Assembly (NCBI GenBank): GCA_029259185.1
Contig: JAPDJF010000006.1
Location: 1-47,940 of the forward strand
Length of the DNA: 47,940 nt
Origin: Hadesarchaea archaeon
GTDB taxonomy: Archaea > Hadarchaeota > Hadarchaeia > Hadarchaeales > WYZ-LMO6
Reading direction: 5' to 3'
In this document: piece by piece, positions 15,659 to 41,990 of the stretch
Layout: every line of letters begins with the position of its first letter
Numbering within the stretch: the stretch's first letter is position 1
Notes under the pieces: generated by a model
Seen by the model: only the letters and a program-made list of their open reading frames with translations
Databases searched by the model: none
Told to the model about the DNA's origin: nothing
Program-made: the position numbers and the translations under genes

Positions 15659-16237
15659 ATGCAGATCAGAGACGGGATATACTTGATAAAACCTGGAAAG
15701 GTCGTGTACGACGAGGTCAGCGTGAGGTATGCTTCTTCTTCTGTTGTCCTGATAGACGATGGTTCGCTCATAGTGGTGGATACGGGTTTGGAAGAAGATT
15801 GGGGGGAGATAGAGAGAGGTATAAGGCGGGCGGGCTTCCATCCTTCGGAGGTGGATACGATTATCAACACACATCTCCATGTAGATCATATCGGCTGTAA
15901 CCACCGTTTCAGCGCTGAGTGTTATGCTCATCCTAAAGAAATAGAGCGTGTGGGTGTTTCTGGATATCTCCCTTGTCCGAAAAGGATTTCGAAGAGAGTC
16001 TGTATCTTAGAAACCCCTGGTCATGTGGATGGCCATATTTCAGTAGTTTTCGAAGGGGTCGTAGTGGCTGGGGATGCCATTCCTACTAAGGAGCATTACT
16101 TCCGGAGGATAATCCCTCGTATCCACACGGATGCGGAGAAAGCCAAGGAAAGCATGCAGAAGATCATAGATGTTGCGGAAATAATACTTCCCGGGCATGA
16201 TGGCCCCGTGTGGATCGGTAGAAAAAGTAAGTTTTAA
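15659..16237 (+). CDS. Metallo-beta-lactamase-fold hydrolase
   Basis: 192 aa; INTHLHVDHIGCN metal-binding motif, TPGHVDGHISVV, AGDAIP. The 3' end (AAA AGT AAG TTT TAA) is the left copy of the 18-bp direct repeat. Confidence 0.9.
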   Translation: MQIRDGIYLIKPGKVVYDEVSVRYASSSVVLIDDGSLIVVDTGLEEDWGEIERGIRRAGFHPSEVDTIINTHLHVDHIGCNHRFSAECYAHPKEIERVGVSGYLPCPKRISKRVCILETPGHVDGHISVVFEGVVVAGDAIPTKEHYFRRIIPRIHTDAEKAKESMQKIIDVAEIILPGHDGPVWIGRKSKF

Positions 16238-16239
16238 CC
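16222..16239. repeat. Left copy of exact 18-bp direct repeat AAAAAGTAAGTTTTAACC
   Basis: Identical to 21764-21781; includes the stop codon of the MBL gene. Confidence 0.85.
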
Positions 16240-16252
16240 ATTATTGCATTTT

Positions 16253-16269
16253 CGACCCCAACTTTATGA
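16253..16269. repeat. Imperfect short direct repeat CGACCCCAA(CT)TTATGA, copy 1
   Basis: cgaccccaactttatga vs cgaccccaattatga at 17157-17171; the pair brackets the GC-rich segment. Confidence 0.4.
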
Positions 16270-16494
16270 TATCTGAAGGTAGATAACATACGTTTTAGCC
16301 AATCAGAGCACTTATTGAGCGGCGAACAACGAAATACGGATTAAACAGTCCTTTTTCATACGTTACCTATTCTTCCCCCCTTTCGCCTTCGACCAAAACC
16401 CCGAAAATCGAATTAGGGTCAGGGGTTTGGGTCATGCAGATTTTCCGCCAACGCTTTTAGGGTTTAGAGAACGGAGAACGGGCTTAGTCATTTT

Positions 16495-16821
16495 GTGGCC
16501 ATCTCACTTTCGCAAATCACCGACGGTCTTCCAGAACGCCCCGGGCGCTTCAGTGTCTCCAAGGCGACCGTCCATAGCGTACACCTCCGACGGTTGCAGG
16601 CCGAGATCGCCACGGCTCTGCGACAGAGGGATGAGGCGCTGAGGCGGAGGGGCGAGGCAAGGAAGGCGGAGGCGGAGTACGAAGAGAGGAGGCGGGTCAA
16701 AGAGGCGGAACTCGAAAAGTTGCGGGCGAGGAAAGCCGAGCTGGTGGGGGAGATCAAAAGGCGGGGCTTAACGCTCAAGGAGAACCGTGGAGGAGAGGAG
16801 GCGCCCGCCGTTCCCGTTTGA
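16495..16821 (+). CDS. Hypothetical coiled-coil protein (GC-rich, possibly mobile-element derived)
   Basis: 108 aa, GTG start; highly charged heptad-like helix (AEIATALRQRDEALRRRGEARKAEAEYEERRRVKEAELEKLRARKAELVGEIKRR). Overlaps another short ORF downstream. Confidence 0.4.
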   Translation: MAISLSQITDGLPERPGRFSVSKATVHSVHLRRLQAEIATALRQRDEALRRRGEARKAEAEYEERRRVKEAELEKLRARKAELVGEIKRRGLTLKENRGGEEAPAVPV

Positions 16822-17156
16822 CCTGCCCCACAGGATCGCCGACCTTGTTGAGTCCGCAACCAGAGGCATCAGGGCGCTGGACGAATCGATCAGGGAACTC
16901 GACCGGGAGCTCGGAGGGGGCAGGGTGAAAGCGGGCGGTGAGGATCTGGTCGCCCGTACCGCGGGACTCGACCAAGTTCCAGCTACACGCACGGCTCTTT
17001 TCCAACCCCGGTCCCGCTGGAGCTGGAGCTCTCCCCCAAGACCAGGGAAGTCTTGGAGAAGGTCAAAGGCAAGAGAGAGGGATCTTGACCAAAAGCGAAA
17101 TCGCCCAGCTTGTGGAAGAGTTAGACTGAATATTTGAACTTCGGTTCATTTGTTTC

Positions 17157-17171
17157 CGACCCCAATTATGA
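17157..17171. repeat. Imperfect short direct repeat CGACCCCAATTATGA, copy 2
   Basis: See 16253-16269. Confidence 0.4.
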
Positions 17172-17260
17172 AGGGAGCGATGGGATGTGGTTGAGCAAGA
17201 AACAGCGATCGAGGCTATTCTGGGGCACTTTAAAGTCGGCGCCCGTAGGTCATTTTCTTT

Positions 17261-17632
17261 TCAAGCGATGATTTGACAATAGAGTAATACCTCAGCGATT
17301 ACCACCACAGCCACGGCAATTCCGCCTATCAGGATCCATAAGATCGGCTCGACAGGAGCGGGTAAAGCCGCGGTTATCGTGATCGTATGCGTCGAGAAGC
17401 TTGGGATCGAAACGAGAATTTGAATCCCCTTCGCTCCCACCAATACCAGATATTTTTCCCTATCTGGATTCAATACGTCAGAATAATCGTCTGCTAGGGG
17501 TATTTCCTTTCCATCAAGGAGAACGGAGATTTCACCTACCCTTGCAACTGGTAAGATGCGGTTGTCGACGTACATCTGCTGATTCGCAGAATCGGTACTG
17601 GGGCTTGGTCGTGGGCTTCCCTCCGCGACCAT
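17261..17632 (-). pseudogene. C-terminal remnant of a membrane-anchored surface-type protein (tentative)
   Basis: Beta-rich domain (MYVDNRILPVARVGEISVLLDGKEIPL...) followed by one C-terminal TM helix (PILWILIGGIAVAVVVIAEVLLYC) with no signal peptide, suggesting a 5'-truncated gene. Confidence 0.4.
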
Positions 17633-17753
17633 CCCCCCGGTTCGTCCCCTGACAGAACTCGCTTTCTGGGATTAAATCATCTCCCGAGTTTGCAACAAAG
17701 CCGAGGATAGTAAATACTTATTTTTACTGAAATTATTGGATGGAGGAATGTAA

Positions 17754-18437
17754 ATGCCATATGATGAGTCTTTGTTAAGGGATTTTTTGGATAAAGCGAG
17801 GTTTTTCCATGGACATGTGTGTCCTTTTGTGGCGCTTGGGATAAAGGCTTCCTTTGTAGCTATGGATAGGCTTGGTGTAGGAAGATTGGGTTTTGATGAG
17901 AGTGTTGGCGAAAGCATACTTGCCATAGTTGAGTGTAATAATTGCTTTACTGATGGTGTTCAAGTTGCCACTGGCTACACGTTAGGCAATAACTGCCTTC
18001 TATATTTCGACCTTGGCAAGGTTGCCTTAACCATTGTGAAGGGAAGCACATGGGATGGTGTAAGAGTCTATATTGACTCGCAAATGCTGAAAAAGGAATA
18101 TTTCCCGGAAGAGGCACTTCGTCTTTTCCGCAAAGTTGTTGCAATGCGAAAGGGAAGCAAGAAGGATAAAGAAATGCTTTCGCAAATATGGGAAAAACTT
18201 GGTTATGAGATGCTTAAAATTCCCGAAAATAAGTTTAAAATTGACAAGGTAAATGTTCCTCCCATTGAAAAAGCACCAATAGTTAAAAGTGTCCGATGTG
18301 AATCCTGCAAGGAGCTAGTTATGGAAACGAGGGCTGTTAGAATTTCAGGGAAGAATTATTGTCTTAAGTGTGCTGGTATGCGTTATCGAGCCCTCATCGG
18401 GAGAGGAATAGTAGAGATGGAAACTGACAAACAATAA
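17754..18437 (+). CDS. FmdE-family protein (formylmethanofuran dehydrogenase subunit E domain) with C-terminal zinc ribbon
   Basis: FFHGHVCPFVALGIKASFVAMDRLG (HxHxC FmdE motif), ECNNCFTDGVQVATGYTLGNN, C-terminal CESCKELVM...YCLKCAGMRY. GGAGG at about -10. Confidence 0.9.
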   Translation: MPYDESLLRDFLDKARFFHGHVCPFVALGIKASFVAMDRLGVGRLGFDESVGESILAIVECNNCFTDGVQVATGYTLGNNCLLYFDLGKVALTIVKGSTWDGVRVYIDSQMLKKEYFPEEALRLFRKVVAMRKGSKKDKEMLSQIWEKLGYEMLKIPENKFKIDKVNVPPIEKAPIVKSVRCESCKELVMETRAVRISGKNYCLKCAGMRYRALIGRGIVEMETDKQ

Positions 18438-18475
18438 AAGCGATATTGGTGTTACTTTTTTAAACAACCGTAACA

Positions 18476-18483
18476 CTTATAAA
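18476..18483 (+). promoter_or_regulatory. Putative TATA box (CTTATAAA) for the secreted FmdE-like gene
   Basis: AT-rich CTTATAAATTG about 31-38 nt upstream of ATG 18514 in a short intergenic gap. Confidence 0.45.
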
Positions 18484-18513
18484 TTGAACATCTAAATTGG
18501 ATAGGTCTTTAAA

Positions 18514-19869
18514 ATGCATCGAAAGAAAAACCCTAATTTACAGGCAATATTGCTTCTTGCATTTTTGGTTATTGCATCTCTCAGCGCAGCCGTTCCAGCA
18601 CATGCCAATAGCTCCATAGTTGACGATTATCCAGAGCTAGCCAACATAGTTGATTTTGTCGGAGAAGAGAATCTTTCCATTCTGCATCTACTCGCATTCA
18701 AGGCATGCAACATCTCAATGGAATCTTTATCGTTTAATGTAAACGAAAGCAGCATATTGGTACTAACCGATGCTGGCTACTGCATGATTGGGAGCTACAC
18801 AACCGAAAAATGCATAGATGTAATCCCCATAAAAACAGGCTGCTCAATAGGCAAAGGAAGTCTTATGATGATACATAGAGCTAAGGAAAGCAGCCTCTGG
18901 TTTGCTTTCTTCAAAAACTCAACTAACGAATGCGTATACTTAGAAGCGAATAGTACCCTGCTGAAAGAATATTTAGATCGAGAAAGCGAGAATCCCTCTG
19001 AAAAATACACAATTCACAAGGAATTTATGGAACTTCCAGCCGAAAAAATATTTGTCAAGAATGTTAAGGAGCAAATAGGTGCCGACAAACTGCTTAACAA
19101 TCCTGAAGATTGGCAAGCAAAAATGGAGAACAAGGTCTTCGGCGGAAACGAGTTTACCATAATAACGATTGCCAATGTTTGGGCGAAAGGTATGAGCTAC
19201 GATTTTATGCAAGCAGCGCAATTTCACAATCACATCTGCCCCGGACTAACCTCCGGATACATTATGATAAAATATCTAGATAAGCATTTGCCGCTTCAAA
19301 GCCCCAGCCAAGGGTATATAATACTCGCCGTTCCGCCTTGGTGTAAGGACGACGCTTTTCAGGCGATATTGGATACAACTGTTGGAAAACGAAAGATGAC
19401 AGTTATGATGCTTTCTAAGGAACAAAAAGATGCATTGCCAGAAGAAGCCAAAAATGTGGCGGGAATTTACATAAGATGGGATAAGAAAGCCGGAAACGGA
19501 ACTGCGCTCGTTCTTGCATTCGATTGGGATAAAGCTTCAAACATGTGTGGGATAGAGAGGTCATGGTTCAAGGACTTTAAATCATATAAATGGTGGTGGA
19601 CAAGGCTTAAGATGGACCTTTGGATGATGGACTATCTGGACAATCCTGAAATGCTAGTTTCAACGATTAAAGAAGTTACTATCGAGAGTCCGGACGAGCT
19701 AATGAAACTGAGATGTGCGGGAATAAATCCTCTAGCTGAGCTTGGAATAATGCCAAGCCAGCAAGCTGAAACGATTCCAACATGGGTTTACGTCGTAATA
19801 GGCATTCTTCTTATAGCAATAGTCTTAACCATAGCCGTATGCGCAGTTAGAGTAAGGAAGCAAACTTAG
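18514..19869 (+). CDS. Predicted secreted, C-terminally membrane-anchored FmdE-like domain protein
   Basis: N-terminal signal-like sequence (MHRKKNPNLQAILLLAFLVIASLSAAVPAHA), FmdE-type AAQFHNHICPGLTSGYIMIKYLD motif, C-terminal TM helix (WVYVVIGILLIAIVLTIAVCAVRVRKQT). Confidence 0.8.
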   Translation: MHRKKNPNLQAILLLAFLVIASLSAAVPAHANSSIVDDYPELANIVDFVGEENLSILHLLAFKACNISMESLSFNVNESSILVLTDAGYCMIGSYTTEKCIDVIPIKTGCSIGKGSLMMIHRAKESSLWFAFFKNSTNECVYLEANSTLLKEYLDRESENPSEKYTIHKEFMELPAEKIFVKNVKEQIGADKLLNNPEDWQAKMENKVFGGNEFTIITIANVWAKGMSYDFMQAAQFHNHICPGLTSGYIMIKYLDKHLPLQSPSQGYIILAVPPWCKDDAFQAILDTTVGKRKMTVMMLSKEQKDALPEEAKNVAGIYIRWDKKAGNGTALVLAFDWDKASNMCGIERSWFKDFKSYKWWWTRLKMDLWMMDYLDNPEMLVSTIKEVTIESPDELMKLRCAGINPLAELGIMPSQQAETIPTWVYVVIGILLIAIVLTIAVCAVRVRKQT

Positions 19870-19871
19870 CT

Positions 19872-20441
19872 CTAATCCCTCTTTTCTTTACGAATAAAGC
19901 TGATAAAAACTTCAGCTATGAGACTTCCTAAAACTCCAGATACGAACGCCACAATTAAGTATATAAGAAGATTCTCTTTAAGCGGCCACACATTAGTATG
20001 GAAGCCTATAGCAGTCCATGTAGTTATGACGCATACAAAATTTGCCAATCCTCCACCAATAGAAAAGCCGAGGAAATCACCTTTTAACCTGAAAAATACT
20101 TCAATAATCAAACCTACTATCAGAAAAGTTATGATGCCGTAAATTCCAAACCATGGGGGATCTACTATTCCGTACCAAGGAGAAATTGGTAAGCAAAAAG
20201 CTGGAATAAGAACTGAAGTGGCAACTGCTGAAAAATTCTTTTTCGTTATTAATGGTGCCAAGGAAATCCAGAGTGTAAATATGAAGCCTCCGAAGAAGAC
20301 CATCCCACCTGCGGGCCCTTTTATGCCCATATTGTTGAGAATTATTTTTATGGGAATAATTATGTTTATTGCGGCGCTTATCATTGCTAAAAGAAAGATA
20401 ACTGCAATATCTTTTAAGTTAAAGTAGGCTGCGCTCCTCAT
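19872..20441 (-). CDS. Polytopic membrane protein, possibly ECF-transporter S-component-like
   Basis: 189 aa, about 6 predicted hydrophobic helices; size and layout resemble ECF S-components. Assignment by architecture only. Confidence 0.5.
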   Translation of the reverse strand: MRSAAYFNLKDIAVIFLLAMISAAINIIIPIKIILNNMGIKGPAGGMVFFGGFIFTLWISLAPLITKKNFSAVATSVLIPAFCLPISPWYGIVDPPWFGIYGIITFLIVGLIIEVFFRLKGDFLGFSIGGGLANFVCVITTWTAIGFHTNVWPLKENLLIYLIVAFVSGVLGSLIAEVFISFIRKEKRD

Positions 20442-21299
20442 TTAGATCACACATCTACTGCAGACAGGGTGACTATTCATATTTCGAATAAATTCCTTAT
20501 ATTCTCGCGACTTTACCACTTCTTTTATACTTACTTTCAACGCATCAGCCAAGCAGCTGTCCGGCATGAAACAGCAAGGCGTTAGCATAGCGTCCCAGGT
20601 AACAAAAATGCAGTTTTTAGCTATTCTACAGGGATAAGAATGTTTCTTCGGTAGAATAAGCTTCATTCTATAATTTTTAGTCAAAGCATTAATTTTCTGA
20701 AAAAGTTGCTTTTCTCTGTGAGTACTCAACGGTTTAAATTCAGAGTTGTATAGATGGAAGATTCTGTGAACATTTATGGCCTCTACTCCTAACCGAGAAG
20801 ATTCCTCTATTATTTGTAGAATCTCACTTTCATTTCTTTCATAAATGGTTATGTCTAAGAAAATTTTCGGCTCTTTAAGCTTGAATTTTTGTTTTAAGGA
20901 TGAGACGAGCTTTACTTTATCTTTGATTTCCTTTAGCCTTTCAAGTTTATACACGCCAAACGCCAATTCGTTAAGTTTCAAATTTAACAAGATTTTAGCA
21001 CTTCCCTCGTTTAGCAAAGTTCCATTTGTTATAAGGCTTGTCTTTGCCCGCTTTTTTGAGGCATAGGTTATCATTTCGTAAATTTTATCATTTAGTAGAG
21101 GCTCACCCCACCCATGAAAAGCAACGTACAGCGGCCTGTTAACATCAATAATCCTCTGAAAATCTTCAACTTTCATGTCCCCCAGGGGCCTCTTAGAAAA
21201 TCTTCTTATGCATATTTCACAGTCAAGATTACAACGGTTAGTAGGTTCAACCTGCACTATCCACCTTCCACCAAACAATAAAGACACCCGAATAAACAA
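20442..21299 (-). CDS. Radical SAM protein with C-terminal cysteine-rich (SPASM-like) region
   Basis: VEPTNRCNLDCEICIRRF (Cx3Cx2C), FHGWGEPLLN, SLITNGTLL; C-terminal CRIAKNC...TPCCFMPDSC...CSRCVI. Confidence 0.88.
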   Translation of the reverse strand: MFIRVSLLFGGRWIVQVEPTNRCNLDCEICIRRFSKRPLGDMKVEDFQRIIDVNRPLYVAFHGWGEPLLNDKIYEMITYASKKRAKTSLITNGTLLNEGSAKILLNLKLNELAFGVYKLERLKEIKDKVKLVSSLKQKFKLKEPKIFLDITIYERNESEILQIIEESSRLGVEAINVHRIFHLYNSEFKPLSTHREKQLFQKINALTKNYRMKLILPKKHSYPCRIAKNCIFVTWDAMLTPCCFMPDSCLADALKVSIKEVVKSREYKEFIRNMNSHPVCSRCVI

Positions 21300-21763
21300 A
21301 AAAAGAAAAGATTAGGGGTGATTTCTGAAAATCCCGAGAATCCTCGTTAACATTCTTCCCTTGAAAGTCAGCAGAAGTAATGTTCCGATGGTTGCTGCTG
21401 AGGCTATATAGTTGACTAGCATAGCCAACGTAGCAAAAGTCGCGTTTGCAGCATTAGCAGCAATAGGTGCACACATCTTAGATCGTAAAATTGCATTCAG
21501 AAAGTATATAAGTGTTACGATTCCGGGTTCCGGGTTCTGGTAAATATTCGTGACTTGTTTTGAATGGTAAATTTCGAGACCTAAACCCATTGCATTTGAA
21601 GCCAAAAAAGCTACTGAAAAGGCACCAGGCGTGGGTAAAACAGCCACAGATATGGCTATCATAACAGCCAAAGGAGTTACTTCTGTGCCTATTGATATTA
21701 TCGACAGATTAAATTCAATTTACATTGAGAGAACCAAAAACATTAATGAAGTGGGAAAATGAT

Positions 21764-21781
21764 AAAAAGTAAGTTTTAACC
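21764..21781. repeat. Right copy of exact 18-bp direct repeat AAAAAGTAAGTTTTAACC
   Basis: Identical to 16222-16239; lies 23-40 nt upstream of the GTG start at 21804, where a TATA box would be expected. Confidence 0.85.
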
Positions 21782-21803
21782 TTGGGAAGAATACAACAGC
21801 TCT

Positions 21804-22964
21804 GTGGACGTGAAGAAGTTGGGGTTCTCCACGAGAGCTGTGCATGCTGGGGAGGAGCCATGTCCGACCACGGGTGCTCACGTCACCCCCATATATCAAA
21901 CCTCAACCTTTGTCCTCGCGGGTAAGATCCCACGTTATTTCTACACGAGACATGGGAATCCCACTCACGCGGTGCTCGAGGAAAAGATGAAAATCTTAGA
22001 GGGTGGAGGTTCCGCCCTCGCCACAGCCTCTGGAATGGCTGCCCTGTTGACGGTGATGTTGACCTCCCTTGAGAAAGGGGACAAAGTACTTTCTTCAGAG
22101 GCGATATATGGTGGTACTTACAATATGCTCAAATTTCTTTTACCCAAATTCGGGGTGGAGCCGATCTTCATAGACATGAGGGACCCAGCGAACGTTAAAA
22201 GAACATTAGATCAAGAGACCAAAGTCAGGATCGTCTTCTTCGAAACTCCGGCTAATCCAACCCTAGACATAATAGATATCGAGAAGATCTCTCGGGTAGC
22301 GAGGGATGCTGGGGCGGATGTAGTGGTAGACAACACATTGATGACTCCCTACTACCAACGTCCGCTAGAATTAGGGGCCGACATAGTGGTCTACAGTGCT
22401 ACCAAGTACCTGAGTGGCCATGGAGATACTTTGGGTGGGATTGTAGTGGGGAAAGAGGAATTCATAACGGAGGCGAGAAGGATATTGGCGGTCACTGGGA
22501 GTGTGATAAGTCCTTTCAACGCTTGGCTCATAATCCGAGGGCTCAAAACGCTTTCGGTGAGGATGGAAAAGCACAGCGAAAATGCTATGAAAGTGGCAAG
22601 ATTCTTGGACTCTCACCCCAAGGTCAGACGGGTGTTGTATCCTGGGTTGTCCACTCATCCCCAGTATAAGCTAGCCCGACAGCAGATGAGGGGATTTGGG
22701 GGAATGGTAGCGTTTGAGATAGATGGAGATACTGGGGATGTTTACGAAGTTTTAGAAGGGTTAAAACTTTGCAGGTGTGCCGTTAGTTTGGGGGATGTAT
22801 CTACTCTTATAGAGCATCCGGCTTCAATGACTCACAGGTCTATCCCGGAGGAGGAGAGGGTGAGAATCGGTATAACCGAAGGACTGATGAGGATTTCGGT
22901 GGGTATCGAGGATGCAGATGATGTGATAGCAGATCTTAACCAGGCACTAAGTCTTTTAAGTTGA
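21804..22964 (+). CDS. Cys/Met-metabolism PLP-dependent enzyme (methionine gamma-lyase / cystathionine gamma-synthase family)
   Basis: GFSTRAVHAGEEPCPTTGAHVTPIYQTSTFV, YFYTRHGNPTHAVLEEK, VVYSATKYLSGHGDTLGGIVVG (PLP lysine), CAVSLGDVSTLIEHPASMTHRSI. Confidence 0.92.
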   Translation: MDVKKLGFSTRAVHAGEEPCPTTGAHVTPIYQTSTFVLAGKIPRYFYTRHGNPTHAVLEEKMKILEGGGSALATASGMAALLTVMLTSLEKGDKVLSSEAIYGGTYNMLKFLLPKFGVEPIFIDMRDPANVKRTLDQETKVRIVFFETPANPTLDIIDIEKISRVARDAGADVVVDNTLMTPYYQRPLELGADIVVYSATKYLSGHGDTLGGIVVGKEEFITEARRILAVTGSVISPFNAWLIIRGLKTLSVRMEKHSENAMKVARFLDSHPKVRRVLYPGLSTHPQYKLARQQMRGFGGMVAFEIDGDTGDVYEVLEGLKLCRCAVSLGDVSTLIEHPASMTHRSIPEEERVRIGITEGLMRISVGIEDADDVIADLNQALSLLS

Positions 22965-24427
22965 GTCACGGAAAAAACGGAAAGATGCCGGAGAGGGACT
23001 TTGATAGAGTTTTCAACCCCCGTGGGATCGCAGTAGTGGGTGCTTCCAATAACCCCTCCAAGTTCGGGTTCATCTTTTACTACGGATTGAAAAATTCCGG
23101 AGGAACGGTTTATCCCGTTAACCCAAAGGAAAAAGAAGTGTTAGGGGATAAGGCGTATCCGAGCGTGGATCGGATACCTTACGAAGTTGATTACGCCGTT
23201 ATTTCCATTCCAGCCAAAGGGGTTCCCAAGGTCGTGGAAGATTGTGGCAAGAAGGGTGTGAAAGCCGTCAGCATTTACACCGCAGGCTACAGCGAAGAAG
23301 GGACGGAAGAGGGTAAGAGAAGGGAAAAAGAATTGGCGGAGGTGGCGAAGAGGAGCAGAGTCAGGGTGATAGGTCCTAACTGTATTGGGATATACTGCCC
23401 AAAGGGAAAACTGTCTTTTTTCGCCGGGCTTCCTCTCCTCTCCGGGGACGTGGCTTTTCTTTCCCAGAGTGGAGGTCATGCTGAGGAGTTCGCATACAAG
23501 GCCGAGAATTGGGGAATACGGTTTAGCAAGATAGTGAGTTTTGGGAATTCATGTGATGTTACATGTGAGGAACTTTTAGAATATCTCGGGGAGGATCCGG
23601 AGACAAAAATCATCGGGATCTACATAGAAGGATCAAAGAATGGCAGGAAATTTTTCGAGACTCTCAAAGAAGTCGCGAAGAAAAAGCCAGTCGTGGTATG
23701 GAAAGGTGGTGAGACGGAGGCCGGTGTCAGAGCCGTGGCTTCCCACACAGGTTCGCTGGCGGGTTCTCCTCTAATCTGGTCCGCCATGATCAGACAGGCG
23801 GGAGCGGTGAAAGTCGAGGATTTTGAAGAGCTCGCCGACACGATATGTGCTTTTAAATACCTCCCGCTCCCGCGTGGGAGAAGAGTGGCGGTGGTAGGGG
23901 CGGGTGGGGGGGCGGGAGTGGCATCCACGGATGTGTGTGAAAAGAATGGTCTGAAGGTTGTCCCCCTTCGAGAGGAAACGAGGAAAAAATTGGGGGAGAT
24001 CGTCCCCCCGCTGGGAACGAGTGTAAAAAATCCGGTCGATCTCTCGTACTTCGTGTTGTTCGACTTTTCAATGATGAAAGATTGTGTAGAGATAGTGATG
24101 GAGGATCCAGATGTGGACATGGTAATCGTGCACGTAAGCCACTTTGACATGATGATGAAGGCTCTCCCAACCATGGAAGAGATTGTATTCAAGACACTTA
24201 TGGAGATCAAGGAGGTCGTAAAGAAATTTCCAGAAAAACCGATAGCGGTGGTTCTCTCCCCTGAATCAGATTTCGATTTGGAGATAGAAAAAGTTAAGCT
24301 GCGCGAACGATTGGTCAGAGAGGGATTATGTGTGTTTGCCTCCACTGTTCGGGCGGCCAGGGCTCTCTCTAATCTCGCTTTTTTGAGAGAGGCGCGTGAC
24401 AGGCGACGGTCAACTACCCCTCCCTAA
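22961..24427 (+). CDS. NDP-forming acyl-CoA synthetase alpha-type protein (CoA-binding + succinyl-CoA-ligase-like domains)
   Basis: VFNPRGIAVVGASNNPSKFGF, VIGPNCIGIYCPKG, FLSQSGGHAEEFA, ASHTGSLAGS active-site His region; no ATP-grasp domain. Stop codon lies inside a hairpin (24416-24436). Confidence 0.88.
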   Translation: MSHGKNGKMPERDFDRVFNPRGIAVVGASNNPSKFGFIFYYGLKNSGGTVYPVNPKEKEVLGDKAYPSVDRIPYEVDYAVISIPAKGVPKVVEDCGKKGVKAVSIYTAGYSEEGTEEGKRREKELAEVAKRSRVRVIGPNCIGIYCPKGKLSFFAGLPLLSGDVAFLSQSGGHAEEFAYKAENWGIRFSKIVSFGNSCDVTCEELLEYLGEDPETKIIGIYIEGSKNGRKFFETLKEVAKKKPVVVWKGGETEAGVRAVASHTGSLAGSPLIWSAMIRQAGAVKVEDFEELADTICAFKYLPLPRGRRVAVVGAGGGAGVASTDVCEKNGLKVVPLREETRKKLGEIVPPLGTSVKNPVDLSYFVLFDFSMMKDCVEIVMEDPDVDMVIVHVSHFDMMMKALPTMEEIVFKTLMEIKEVVKKFPEKPIAVVLSPESDFDLEIEKVKLRERLVREGLCVFASTVRAARALSNLAFLREARDRRRSTTPP

Positions 24428-24500
24428 AGGAGGGGTCTTGCAGGTGAGCATGGCGCTCAAAACTCATCGCACTCAGACCGCATAAGGCCTGATCGAGATA
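24404..24500. mobile_element. Putative solo IS200/IS605-type end (hairpin-bearing, PATE-like)
   Basis: GGTCAACTACCCCTCCCTAAAGGAGGGGTCTTGCAG with perfect 8-bp stem ACCCCTCC-CTAAA-GGAGGGGT (24416-24436), followed by GTGAGCATGGCGCTCAAAACTCATCGC; no transposase ORF adjacent. Confidence 0.45.
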
Positions 24501-24548
24501 TCCGGAGGGATTAAATTTCTTACTCACTTCATTCAAATCGGTGAAAGA

Positions 24549-24947
24549 ATGGCCAAAATGCCCAAAGAGGCCCTGGACATGCTTAACGATTTGGAGAGTT
24601 CCAAAGTCCTGGCAACCGTAGATAGGGAAGGAAGGGTGAACGCGGTACCCGTGGGATCTCTCATGGCCGCCGATGACGAGACCATCCTATTCGCCGAAAT
24701 CTTCCTACAAAAGACGAAGTCGAATCTTGAAACCACGGGGAAGGCGAGTGTACTCGTGTTCAAAGCTCTGGATGGATATCAGATTAAGGGAAAATTCTTG
24801 GGTTTTCAAACGTCTGGAGAACTTTTCGAGCAGACGGCAAAGCGTGTCAAGGAGCTGTTGGGGCTGGAAATAAAGAGTGTTGGAACGATAAGAGTTGAGG
24901 AGGTTTACTCGGTAGGTCCACCCGAGCCTGGTAAAAGACTCGTTTGA
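24549..24947 (+). CDS. Pyridoxamine 5'-phosphate oxidase-like FMN-binding protein
   Basis: 132 aa; KEALDMLNDLESSKVLATVDREGRVNAVPVGSLMAADDETILFAEIFLQKTKSNLETTGKASVLVF typical of small PNPOx-like flavoproteins. Confidence 0.82.
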   Translation: MAKMPKEALDMLNDLESSKVLATVDREGRVNAVPVGSLMAADDETILFAEIFLQKTKSNLETTGKASVLVFKALDGYQIKGKFLGFQTSGELFEQTAKRVKELLGLEIKSVGTIRVEEVYSVGPPEPGKRLV

Positions 24948-25023
24948 ACACGATACATCTTGCAAGCCCATCCGTTATGGCGGGGTAGTTGGGAGCAACG
25001 AACCGAGAGAAAACCAGCAGGAG

Positions 25024-26475
25024 TCAACTTAGAGGAGGTTTGCCCGGGTTCATTATGTTGTTTGGATCTATGAGCTTCTTCACGGCTATCCACAGCTCCC
25101 CATACTTTCCGAGTTCGGAAGCGTCCACAACTCCAGGAAACGGTCTGAACCATCCGTAGATACCGGTTCTCAAGAGGGCCTTCATTATTTCTCTGTGGAG
25201 TTTTTTCATCTTTCGTACTTGCTCTGGATCCCCAGCGTCCCAGAGGATACACGGATCGTTATAAGAGAGCTGGCCGTGAAACGGAGCTACTGGAACCGCT
25301 TCATAGTGAAACTCATCGAATCCGTATTTGAAGCTAAGTTTCCTGCATACCCTATAGTAGGTTGGAGCAAGCTTCATTACTCCATAGAATGAGCAACCGT
25401 ACAGATTTCCTTTTTTCCATCCTCTGACACTCGTCCTTTCCCATATTTCGTCTTTTATCATTTCCTCTTCGCTCTCCGGGGGGAGGGGAAGGATCGTCCC
25501 CCCACTCTCCGCCACGATTTTTCTCATGATTTCCTCATCCTTTTCCGCTCTTTCCCTCTCCCCAGCCACATACAGCCACATGGTTAGGAAGTCCTCACTT
25601 CCCATCGCCTCTGCCAATTGTACGGATACGCTCTCTAAGTGAGATCCCTTGGTTAGCGTTCTCAGAGAAGAGGGGGTAAACGTCATCGTCCAACATGCCT
25701 CCACCACGTCTTTGATCGTTAGTTCGATGGCGGGTTTGACCATAGATTCATAGTTCGGATAGGCCACCATAAACGGTTTCATTACCTCTGGCATCGGGTA
25801 GAGCCTTATCGTGCCCTTGGTTAGCACGCCGAATGTGCCCGGGTTAGCTTGGAAGAGCTTACATAAGTCAGGTCCATTCACGATGTTGCAATAGGGTTTC
25901 GGATTCGTAGTTGGGGTATTGAGGGAGCCGGTTTGAAGGAGGTCCCCGTTAGGGAGCACAACCTCTATGGAGATCAGGTGGTCTGTCCCGTACCTCGTAG
26001 CTGGCCCATAGATCCCTCTCAGCATGTAATTGGCGAGCACTGATGCCGTTGAGGGGGCCCAAGGGGTTATGACCCTCAATCCCGTTTTCCTAACTTCATT
26101 CACGAGTTGTCCAAAGCTCACAGCCGGCTCTATCGTGGCTGTCATCATCTCCTCGTTTATTTCCAAGATGCGGTTCATTCTTCGAAGGTCTAGCATTATC
26201 CCACCCTTGGAAGGAATGCACAGCCCCTTTCTGTTAATTCCAGAGGCCAGGGGCACAACTGGCACTCGATATTTGTTGGCCAGTCTGAGGATGGCTTGAA
26301 TTTCTTCTTTCGTTGAGGGTCTGACTACCACATCGGGTCTGTGGGGAGGGATTAGGAAGAATTGGTCATCTCTTTCGTACGCCACTAGGTCAGACACATC
26401 CGAGGATACGTGTTCCTGACCGACTATATCGATTAATAGCTTCTCGATGCGCCGCATTTTCCCCTTTCTTTTCAT
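25024..26475 (-). CDS. FAD-binding oxidoreductase (GlcD / FAD-linked oxidase type)
   Basis: RPDVVVRPSTKEEIQAILRLANKYRVPVVPLASGINRKGLCIPSKGGIMLDLRRMNRI...; C-terminal LIDPNNIMNPGK. Confidence 0.9.
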   Translation of the reverse strand: MKRKGKMRRIEKLLIDIVGQEHVSSDVSDLVAYERDDQFFLIPPHRPDVVVRPSTKEEIQAILRLANKYRVPVVPLASGINRKGLCIPSKGGIMLDLRRMNRILEINEEMMTATIEPAVSFGQLVNEVRKTGLRVITPWAPSTASVLANYMLRGIYGPATRYGTDHLISIEVVLPNGDLLQTGSLNTPTTNPKPYCNIVNGPDLCKLFQANPGTFGVLTKGTIRLYPMPEVMKPFMVAYPNYESMVKPAIELTIKDVVEACWTMTFTPSSLRTLTKGSHLESVSVQLAEAMGSEDFLTMWLYVAGERERAEKDEEIMRKIVAESGGTILPLPPESEEEMIKDEIWERTSVRGWKKGNLYGCSFYGVMKLAPTYYRVCRKLSFKYGFDEFHYEAVPVAPFHGQLSYNDPCILWDAGDPEQVRKMKKLHREIMKALLRTGIYGWFRPFPGVVDASELGKYGELWIAVKKLIDPNNIMNPGKPPLS

Positions 26476-27644
26476 GTCAATCTCTCCGAGAGTAGCTCGC
26501 TCAAGTCACGCACTTCCATTCCTTTCTTAACTTTTTTTTCGGCGTCTTCTAGATTTCTCTTGCAAAATGGACATGTTGAAGCGAGGATGTTAGCCCCCGT
26601 TTTCTCGGCTTCTTCGAGACGTTGGGTTGCCGACCAGATGGCGAAGTCCGGGAGAGCGGCTTTCACACCACTTCCCGCCCCACAACACCAAGCATTCTCT
26701 TTTGTGCGTTTCATCTCCACGAAATATCGTCCAAATATTTCCCTTAGAACTTGGCGCGGGGGGTCATAAAGGCCGGTTCCTCTACCGAGGTGACATGGAT
26801 CGTGATAAGTGACTTTTATCCCCTCCTCTCTCCGCGGCCGAAGTTTCTTCTCCTTGATGAGGTTCCAAAAATATTCGCTCGTGTGTAGGACTTCAAAGTC
26901 AAGTGTCCTTCCCAAGAGTTTAGGATAATCCTTTTTGAAGGTTTTGTAGCAGCCGGCACACGAAAATATCACTTTCTCAGCCCCCGCGTCCTTTAGCGCT
27001 CTTAGATTGTGCTTGGCCAGATCCCTGGCGAGTTTCCTCTGTCCTGTTCGTAGGAGGGGGGATCCGCAGCACCACTCCTCACCATCCATGATCCCGAACT
27101 CTACTCCAGAAGCGGAAAGGATCTCGACGGTGGCTCTAGCTATTTCTTGGGTTCGGTATGAAGAGGTGCAACCTACGAAATACACGATCTTCCCACCTTT
27201 CGGAATTCGAGAGTTGAGCCATGAGGTTCTCTTTTCATGTTTTTCCCAGTAGGGATTGTGGTTTCTCTGTATGCTCCTCGCGTAATCCGCTTGTTTGGGT
27301 AGAGGTCCGTACCCCTCCTCAACGAGCTTTGTCTTAAGCTCTTCAAAAAACTCGACGTGATCTATGTTCAACCCCGTCAGATCTTTGCACTGACTATGGC
27401 AAGCTCCACACCCCAAGTCACCAAATATTATTTGGAGCATGCGAGAGGAGGGCTTCTTTATCTTACCTTGGATGAACGCTCTTCCTATTTCTATCTTCCC
27501 AGCGGCTGAGAATGATTCGAACCCAAAGTAGGCGTAGGTAGGGCAGATGGAAACCCATTCATCGAGTTCGTGCCAGTTTCCCACATTACAGAGATGACAG
27601 TGAAAACAGTGGTAGAGTTCTTTTAAATAATCTTTCAGCTTCAT
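26472..27644 (-). CDS. CCG-domain (Fe-S)-binding oxidoreductase (HdrB/GlcF/HdrD-like) with N-terminal ferredoxin-like region
   Basis: Two CCG motifs: YFVGCTSSYR...WCCGSPLLRTG...FSCAGCYKTF and YHDPCHLGRGTG...WCCGAGSGVK...TCPFCKRNLED; start overlaps the stop region of the FAD oxidase gene. Confidence 0.9.
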   Translation of the reverse strand: MKLKDYLKELYHCFHCHLCNVGNWHELDEWVSICPTYAYFGFESFSAAGKIEIGRAFIQGKIKKPSSRMLQIIFGDLGCGACHSQCKDLTGLNIDHVEFFEELKTKLVEEGYGPLPKQADYARSIQRNHNPYWEKHEKRTSWLNSRIPKGGKIVYFVGCTSSYRTQEIARATVEILSASGVEFGIMDGEEWCCGSPLLRTGQRKLARDLAKHNLRALKDAGAEKVIFSCAGCYKTFKKDYPKLLGRTLDFEVLHTSEYFWNLIKEKKLRPRREEGIKVTYHDPCHLGRGTGLYDPPRQVLREIFGRYFVEMKRTKENAWCCGAGSGVKAALPDFAIWSATQRLEEAEKTGANILASTCPFCKRNLEDAEKKVKKGMEVRDLSELLSERLT

Positions 27645-41453: not shown

Positions 41454-41990
41454 TCACTCGACGGTCACCGGTTCTGTTGCGCGATCTGGAGCCGCGCAAC
41501 TGGTGGGGTCACAATCATTTCCCACCACCCGGCCGAACCTCAGCCCCCCATCTTCGGGTTCGGCGACGTTCACCCAAGCCATGCGGTTCCTGTCCCCTTC
41601 AATCCCGCAACTCGGGCACATCAGGTGGCGCAAATCTGGGCCGACCTTCAGCCTTTCCCCACATCTCGGACACACGCTTGACGTGCTCCTCGGCGGAACA
41701 TTGGAGAGAGGAGCGGAGTTCCAGTTCGACTTGTATTGGACTGTCTGCCGGATCCTTCGACCATCCGGCTCCAGTCCGTGCCTTTCTCTTATCCCTCCAG
41801 CCGTTGATGCTCCCCAGCGAGGTGATCCCGCGCCGACCGCTGTGCCAAAGAAGTCCTGAACCGCCCTGGGTACCGCTCGATGAGCTCTCCCTCGGCGTTG
41901 GGCTCGTAACCGATGCGGATGCCCTTCAGCGCGACCGCCCTCCAATCAGCATAGGTATGATGCCAACCAAAACGAAGACCGATCACGCAA
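41454..41990 (-). pseudogene. TnpB-family (IS200/IS605/IS607) remnant, C-terminal zinc-ribbon region retained
   Basis: IRQTVQYKSNWNSAPLSNVPPRSTSSVCPRCGERLKVGPDLRHLMCPSCGIEGDRNRMAWVNVAEPEDGG matches the TnpB C-terminal zinc ribbon; upstream part is short and appears frame-disrupted; GC-rich relative to neighbours. Confidence 0.72.

Follow-up and report, generated by a model that had tools for sequence, protein, structure and literature searches.

The CRISPR adaptation module has been proposed to descend from casposons, transposons whose Cas1-type integrase (casposase) joins the ends of the element to target DNA. Family 1, the thaumarchaeal NitAR1-C1 type (PMC4046053, PMC6563490, PMC6614799), is defined by a protein-primed-type B-family polymerase (PolB) together with a Cas1 that has no C-terminal HTH extension, and its insertions fall mostly in the 3'-distal portion of a protein gene (PMC6614799). 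The target duplications published for casposons measure 1-27 nt (median 15), and inverted repeat and duplication frequently overlap (PMC4046053); duplications made in vitro are 14-15 bp long (PMC6614799). Mini-casposons with inverted repeats of 31 bp move in vivo in Methanosarcina mazei (PMC10359463). The cargo described in this literature consists mostly of nucleases, methyltransferases and unknown genes, and a literature search for casposons together with Hadarchaeota gave no match.

The window analysed here, the whole stretch of 47,940 bp, is the complete contig C8 of a draft genome (G000; 1,267,874 bases in 54 contigs). The McrC, marker-8 and CoA/beta-oxidation-type genes on the contig suggest, tentatively, that the host is a Hadarchaeota-like archaeon with Mcr/Acr. 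Between the MBL-fold hydrolase gene and the gene for a Cys/Met-metabolism PLP enzyme lies a segment of 5.5 kb (Table 1). In three genomes from another genus of the same family (G001, G002 and G003), the MBL gene (about 69-70% identical to that of the window) is followed directly by the PLP orthologue, with no insert; the marker-8 gene precedes this pair (in G002 it is truncated at the edge of the contig), and an acetate-CoA-ligase-like gene comes after it. Once the insert and one copy of the 18-bp repeat described below are subtracted, the window has the relatives' arrangement, with a slightly longer spacer. Because of this empty site, the segment is a real insertion that splits two genes which are adjacent in the relatives. 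The original prediction, that an insertion had duplicated its target between two genes formerly side by side, is thus borne out, and the intervening genes are absent from the relatives' locus altogether, so that no case was found of the same genes standing there without the repeat. The further proposal that the target had been the ancestral promoter of the PLP gene finds no support, since the relatives leave little or no space between MBL stop and PLP start, which overlap in G002 and G003 and are about 9 nt apart in G001. As the two genes nearly overlap in these relatives, the target probably lay inside an operon rather than in a dedicated promoter, and the gene spacing suggests that the insertion split a single MBL-PLP operon.

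Table 1. Features of the insertion and its flanks (window coordinates).
Feature	Position	Strand	Evidence or remark
MBL-fold hydrolase gene	15659..16237	+	PF00753 5.5e-24; 3' end is the insertion target
Left 18-bp repeat copy	16222..16239	+	last MBL codons and stop; 16226-16239 (AGTAAGTTTTAACC) likely the target duplication proper
Casposon terminal region, inverted repeat and ~107 bp of subterminal DNA	16240..16546	+	~93% to right terminus of the G000:C13 casposon
Frameshifted remnant of a gene 3' end	16900..17129	+	93% to G000:C3:11784-12012; frame-shifting indels
Short membrane-anchored ORF	17261..17632	-	resembles pieces of repeated G010 genes (tblastn, L127-L130)
FmdE1, FmdE domain and C-terminal zinc finger	17754..18437	+	PF02663 1.3e-32, PF01258 2.9e-6
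FmdE2, FmdE domain, apparently secreted and membrane-anchored	18514..19869	+	PF02663 1.3e-19
ECF-transporter S-component-like membrane protein	19872..20441	-	predicted structure, pLDDT 87.9
Radical SAM/SPASM protein	20442..21299	-	PF04055 5.3e-13, PF13186 3.9e-7
54-aa conserved membrane peptide, adjoining the radical SAM gene	21312..21476	-	L067, L068, L076, L078 and L080 have similar peptides in this position
Right casposon-type tip TTTTTATCATTTTCCCACTTC	21748..21768	-	19/21 to G015 casposon tip
Right 18-bp repeat copy	21764..21781	+	21768-21781 likely the target duplication proper
Cys/Met-metabolism PLP enzyme gene, right flank	21804..22964	+	PF01053 7.8e-146

The boundaries of the insert are marked by a direct repeat of 18 bp (AAAAAGTAAGTTTTAACC), both copies of which are exact and lie where they had been predicted. 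The MBL stop codon ends at 16237, inside the left copy, and the right copy ends 22 nt before the GTG start (21804) of the PLP gene. The window has no other exact direct repeat of 18 bp or more, and no third copy with up to two mismatches was found in the genome (a draft, such that the absence of more 18-mers, like that of the cassette elsewhere, is absence in drafts); with two copies only, the 18-mer is not a common promoter word. Its occurrence in two viral contigs is probably due to chance. The sequence is AT-rich, as might be expected of a fortuitous repeat unrelated to the insertion; however, only 1 of 200 Markov-shuffled windows contains any exact direct repeat of 18 bases or more, and the two copies stand exactly at both boundaries set independently by the empty site, which makes such a coincidence scarcely credible. 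The segment also differs from its flanks in composition, as had been claimed, but it is not uniform: the GC content is 46% at 16240-16546, rises to 60% at 16547-17250 and falls to 37-41% between FmdE1 and the right end, with the flanking MBL and PLP genes at 48-49%.

Contig C13 of the same genome carries a 9.5-kb element (about 17970-27530; L087:3465-13032) with perfect inverted repeats of about 205 bp, which encodes Cas1 (PF01867, 2.9e-52), a B-family polymerase (PF03175, 5.2e-25) that matches protein-primed-type viral polymerases, as well as HTH and membrane proteins identified by weak matches. The Cas1, the only one found in the source genome, has E (in MGIES), H (in YLHS) and D (in CDIQE) at what we take, reading by eye, to be the expected catalytic positions. 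The element is flanked by a 15-bp duplication (AGTTAAGGTTTATAT), and it too has an empty site, in that the genes on its two sides adjoin in G001 and G002. By its gene content and termini, with Cas1, PolB, inverted repeats and target duplication all found, the C13 element is an intact casposon. A second intact casposon is present in G015, of the same order (contig C8; L110:1025-11003). It has Cas1 at 80% and PolB at 80%; its inverted repeats are about 170 bp long at 94%, and its direct repeat (AAAAAAGTTAAATTTTAAC) has an A-run that overlaps the inverted-repeat tip. In both elements the PolB matches protein-primed polymerases and the Cas1 is short, so that they may belong to family 1. Two more casposon ends, with the G015-type tip TTTTTACTATTTTCCCA, are found in G009 (C40, L111; C28, L126), likewise within the same order or family. 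A degraded casposon relative is seen on G002:C39 (L125).

The left end of the insert matches the C13 terminus over 307 bp, beginning right at the 18-mer; the copies on C13 are at 27215-27518(-), at about 93% identity, and in part at 17977-18173(+). About 7 nt of the left tip (TTTTTAC) are missing, which slippage between the target TTTTAAC and the tip TTTTTAC would account for, and with its left tip short the element is probably now immobile. Within this region, at 16409-16436, there is a motif like GAAAATCGAATTAGGGTCAGG, common to casposon ends of different genera (L125, L126) and possibly bound by a protein; the right end of the insert showed no such motif. The right end carries a shorter likeness, to a different casposon. 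The G015 tip (TTTTTATCATATTCCCATTTC) has a single place in the window, exactly at the right junction, with two mismatches; at up to three mismatches, 0.02 matches per window are expected by chance, and only this one was found. In a degenerate form of the tip, the right junction is the sole exact match in the genome, with two others at three mismatches. When the right 300 bp were compared with known casposon termini for a longer inverted repeat, local alignments did not rise clear of shuffled controls beyond these 21 nt.

The draft state of the assembly and the foreign composition of the insert, together with the fact that the conclusions are drawn from the assembly and not from reads, raise the question of whether a short overlap led to a foreign contig of 5.5 kb being assembled into the gap between MBL and PLP. 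Such a misjoin would not, however, leave both ends with a casposon-type tip and a target duplication, and the left end is not a collapse of the C13 repeat, because it is 93% and not 100% identical to the C13 copy. An artefact of this kind is considered very unlikely.

The 18-mer itself is best read as a casposon target duplication of about 14 bp (AGTAAGTTTTAACC), to which A's shared with the repeat tip have been added. On this reading a duplication of about 14 bp appears as 18 bp because the A's of the target coincide with those ending the inverted-repeat tip, and the other four A's would derive from MBL codons in the left copy and from the repeat tip in the right one. A target duplication of about 14-15 bp, AGTAAGTTTTAACC, stands at both ends inside the 18-bp repeat. 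The target sites of the related elements are alike: AGTTAAGGTTTATAT for C13, AGTTAAATTTTAAC for G015, GTTAAGATTTAAC for G009-C40 and CTTAAATTTTAAA for G009-C28, beside AGTAAGTTTTAACC in the window. The pattern TTAA, two bases, TTTAA, or one close to it, is found in four of the five sites (n=5 ends, those of G009 being seen from one side only); the C13 site ends in TTTATA, and that of the window begins with GTAA. The data suggest that casposons with a recognisable target motif occur in this lineage.

A repeat of 18 bp present in two copies only would also be a plausible length for an att core, left by site-specific integration through a tyrosine recombinase whose gene was subsequently lost. No integrase gene or remnant was matched among the insert ORFs scanned (Pfam, NCBIfam, PHROGs), though, and the element did not insert into a tRNA gene. 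Moreover, the casposon inverted-repeat sequence at both junctions is not predicted by an att model, and integration of this kind is, in our judgement, highly improbable.

In contrast to the C13 and G015 elements, the insert has no genes for transposition: no match to cas1 or polB was obtained in 16240-21767, where tblastn picked up no more than 26 codons, from a terminal casposon gene. Between the left end and the cassette are the remains of other genes. The counterpart of the frameshifted remnant at G000:C3:11784-12012 (L088:3785-4013) is a gene end that follows a 482-aa ORF whose match, a weak one, is SMC-related, and this region of C3 is possibly another mobile element. No relative was found for a 63-aa ORF tail at 21571-21759. 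Well outside the insert, a remnant of a TnpB C-terminal region (NF040570, 1.9e-8) occupies 41454-41945 (-) of the window.

The cargo proper, in the order FmdE-FmdE-ECF-S-radical SAM-peptide, is intact and spans 17754 to 21476. Full-length relatives of FmdE2, about 50% identical, are found in L067, L068 and L080, and none was found at E <= 1e-8 in the other genomes of the order among those searched. The model of the S-component-like protein has 5edl as its best Foldseek match (probability 1.00, TM 0.65, with an E of only 0.018), and the radical SAM protein is TIGR04317-like, with a score below the TIGR04317 cut-off. The radical SAM protein possibly has the adjoining peptide as its substrate or partner. 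Peptides of about 54 aa in several distant archaea are membrane-like and start with (M/V/L)C(T/A)xxAxN. The order FmdE2, S-component, radical SAM (and peptide) is found again in MAGs carrying the labels Bathyarchaeota, Hecatellales and Thermoprotei; in MAGs labelled Methanosarcinales and Deltaproteobacteria the same genes occur rearranged. In a tree of radical SAM proteins, the window protein falls into a clade (support 100/99) with sequences labelled Bathyarchaeota, Hecatellales and Thermoprotei, and the low GC content of the cassette (37-41%) fits a foreign origin. A viral or plasmid source was considered and set aside: FmdE2 had no match in viral contigs, phages or plasmids, and the radical SAM protein had no relative in viral contigs. 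A literature search for FmdE with radical SAM gave a match only in a methanogen genome description.

That a casposon made the duplication, whether its cargo was aboard from the start or was exchanged later, is highly probable. The explanation that we favour, albeit with modest conviction, is that segment 16240-21767 is a casposon-derived, non-autonomous insertion which already carried the foreign cassette when it arrived. A casposase supplied in trans, for example by the intact C13 casposon, would have inserted a DNA that lacked its own cas1 and polB by joining its ends to a staggered cut in the 3' end of the MBL gene, and filling-in of the stagger would have duplicated the approximately 14 bp of AGTAAGTTTTAACC. 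Supporting this explanation are the empty site, the casposon-type sequence at both ends, the intact related casposons, the alike target sites and the intact, syntenic cargo, which was not detected in other genomes of the order, together with the published precedents for duplication length, 3' target sites and mini-casposon movement; against it stand the limitation of the right-hand likeness to 21 nt, the left tip that is about 7 nt short, and the absence of cas1 and polB from the insert. We infer that the two ends acted together, that a casposase served them in trans and, from the way in which ends and duplication bracket the whole segment, that the cargo lay inside at insertion; at the same time the cassette is found between casposon ends in one genome only, and its presence aboard at insertion is therefore unproven.

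The subterminal casposon DNA retained at the left end, the debris of other mobile genes between that end and the cassette, and the reduction of the right inverted repeat to 21 nt would likewise be expected if an autonomous casposon had inserted and had then been stripped by deletion of cas1, polB and the greater part of its right inverted repeat, with cassette and debris entering by unrelated recombination. The duplication would then be due to a casposon with which the cargo had never travelled. This history calls for several further events, including a deletion that stopped within the last 21 nt on the right, and no cas1 or polB remnant persists in the insert; we regard it as the one serious rival, tenable but somewhat doubtful. 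With the cargo aboard at insertion, as in the favoured explanation, the ends could further have been of mixed parentage, an idea prompted by the right tip, which resembles those of G015 and G009 more than that of C13 (over 21 nt). The insert would then be a natural composite casposon, in which a C13-like left end and a G015/G009-like right end were used together to move a complete cassette between distant archaeal lineages, a proposal that we think rather unlikely.

If the favoured explanation is true, it would suggest that DNA other than casposons can be moved in trans by casposases, in the manner seen with engineered mini-casposons, and if the ends are indeed composite, transposons based on Cas1 would act as vehicles for metabolic gene transfer. 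The two autonomous casposons, several further ends and two clean empty sites provide a ready test set for these ideas.

Compared with the family 1 casposons, the insert has termini that resemble their inverted repeats, a target duplication of similar length (about 14-15 bp) and a location where a protein gene ends, on its 3' side, and the likeness extends to the autonomous C13 and G015 elements, which encode Cas1 and a protein-primed-type PolB; it differs in having neither Cas1 nor PolB, in the 21-nt extent of its right inverted repeat and in its cassette of cofactor/transport type. The engineered M. mazei mini-casposons are alike in placing cargo between short casposon ends and in the use of a casposase in trans, which is proposed for the insert, but they are laboratory constructs that moved in vivo, whereas the insert is natural, has a damaged left tip and is known from sequence alone. 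Despite its casposon ends, and with no insertion-sequence transposase recognised within it, the insert also resembles composite transposons and MITE-like non-autonomous derivatives of insertion sequences, in that host-type genes lie between transposon ends and the enzyme is encoded elsewhere.
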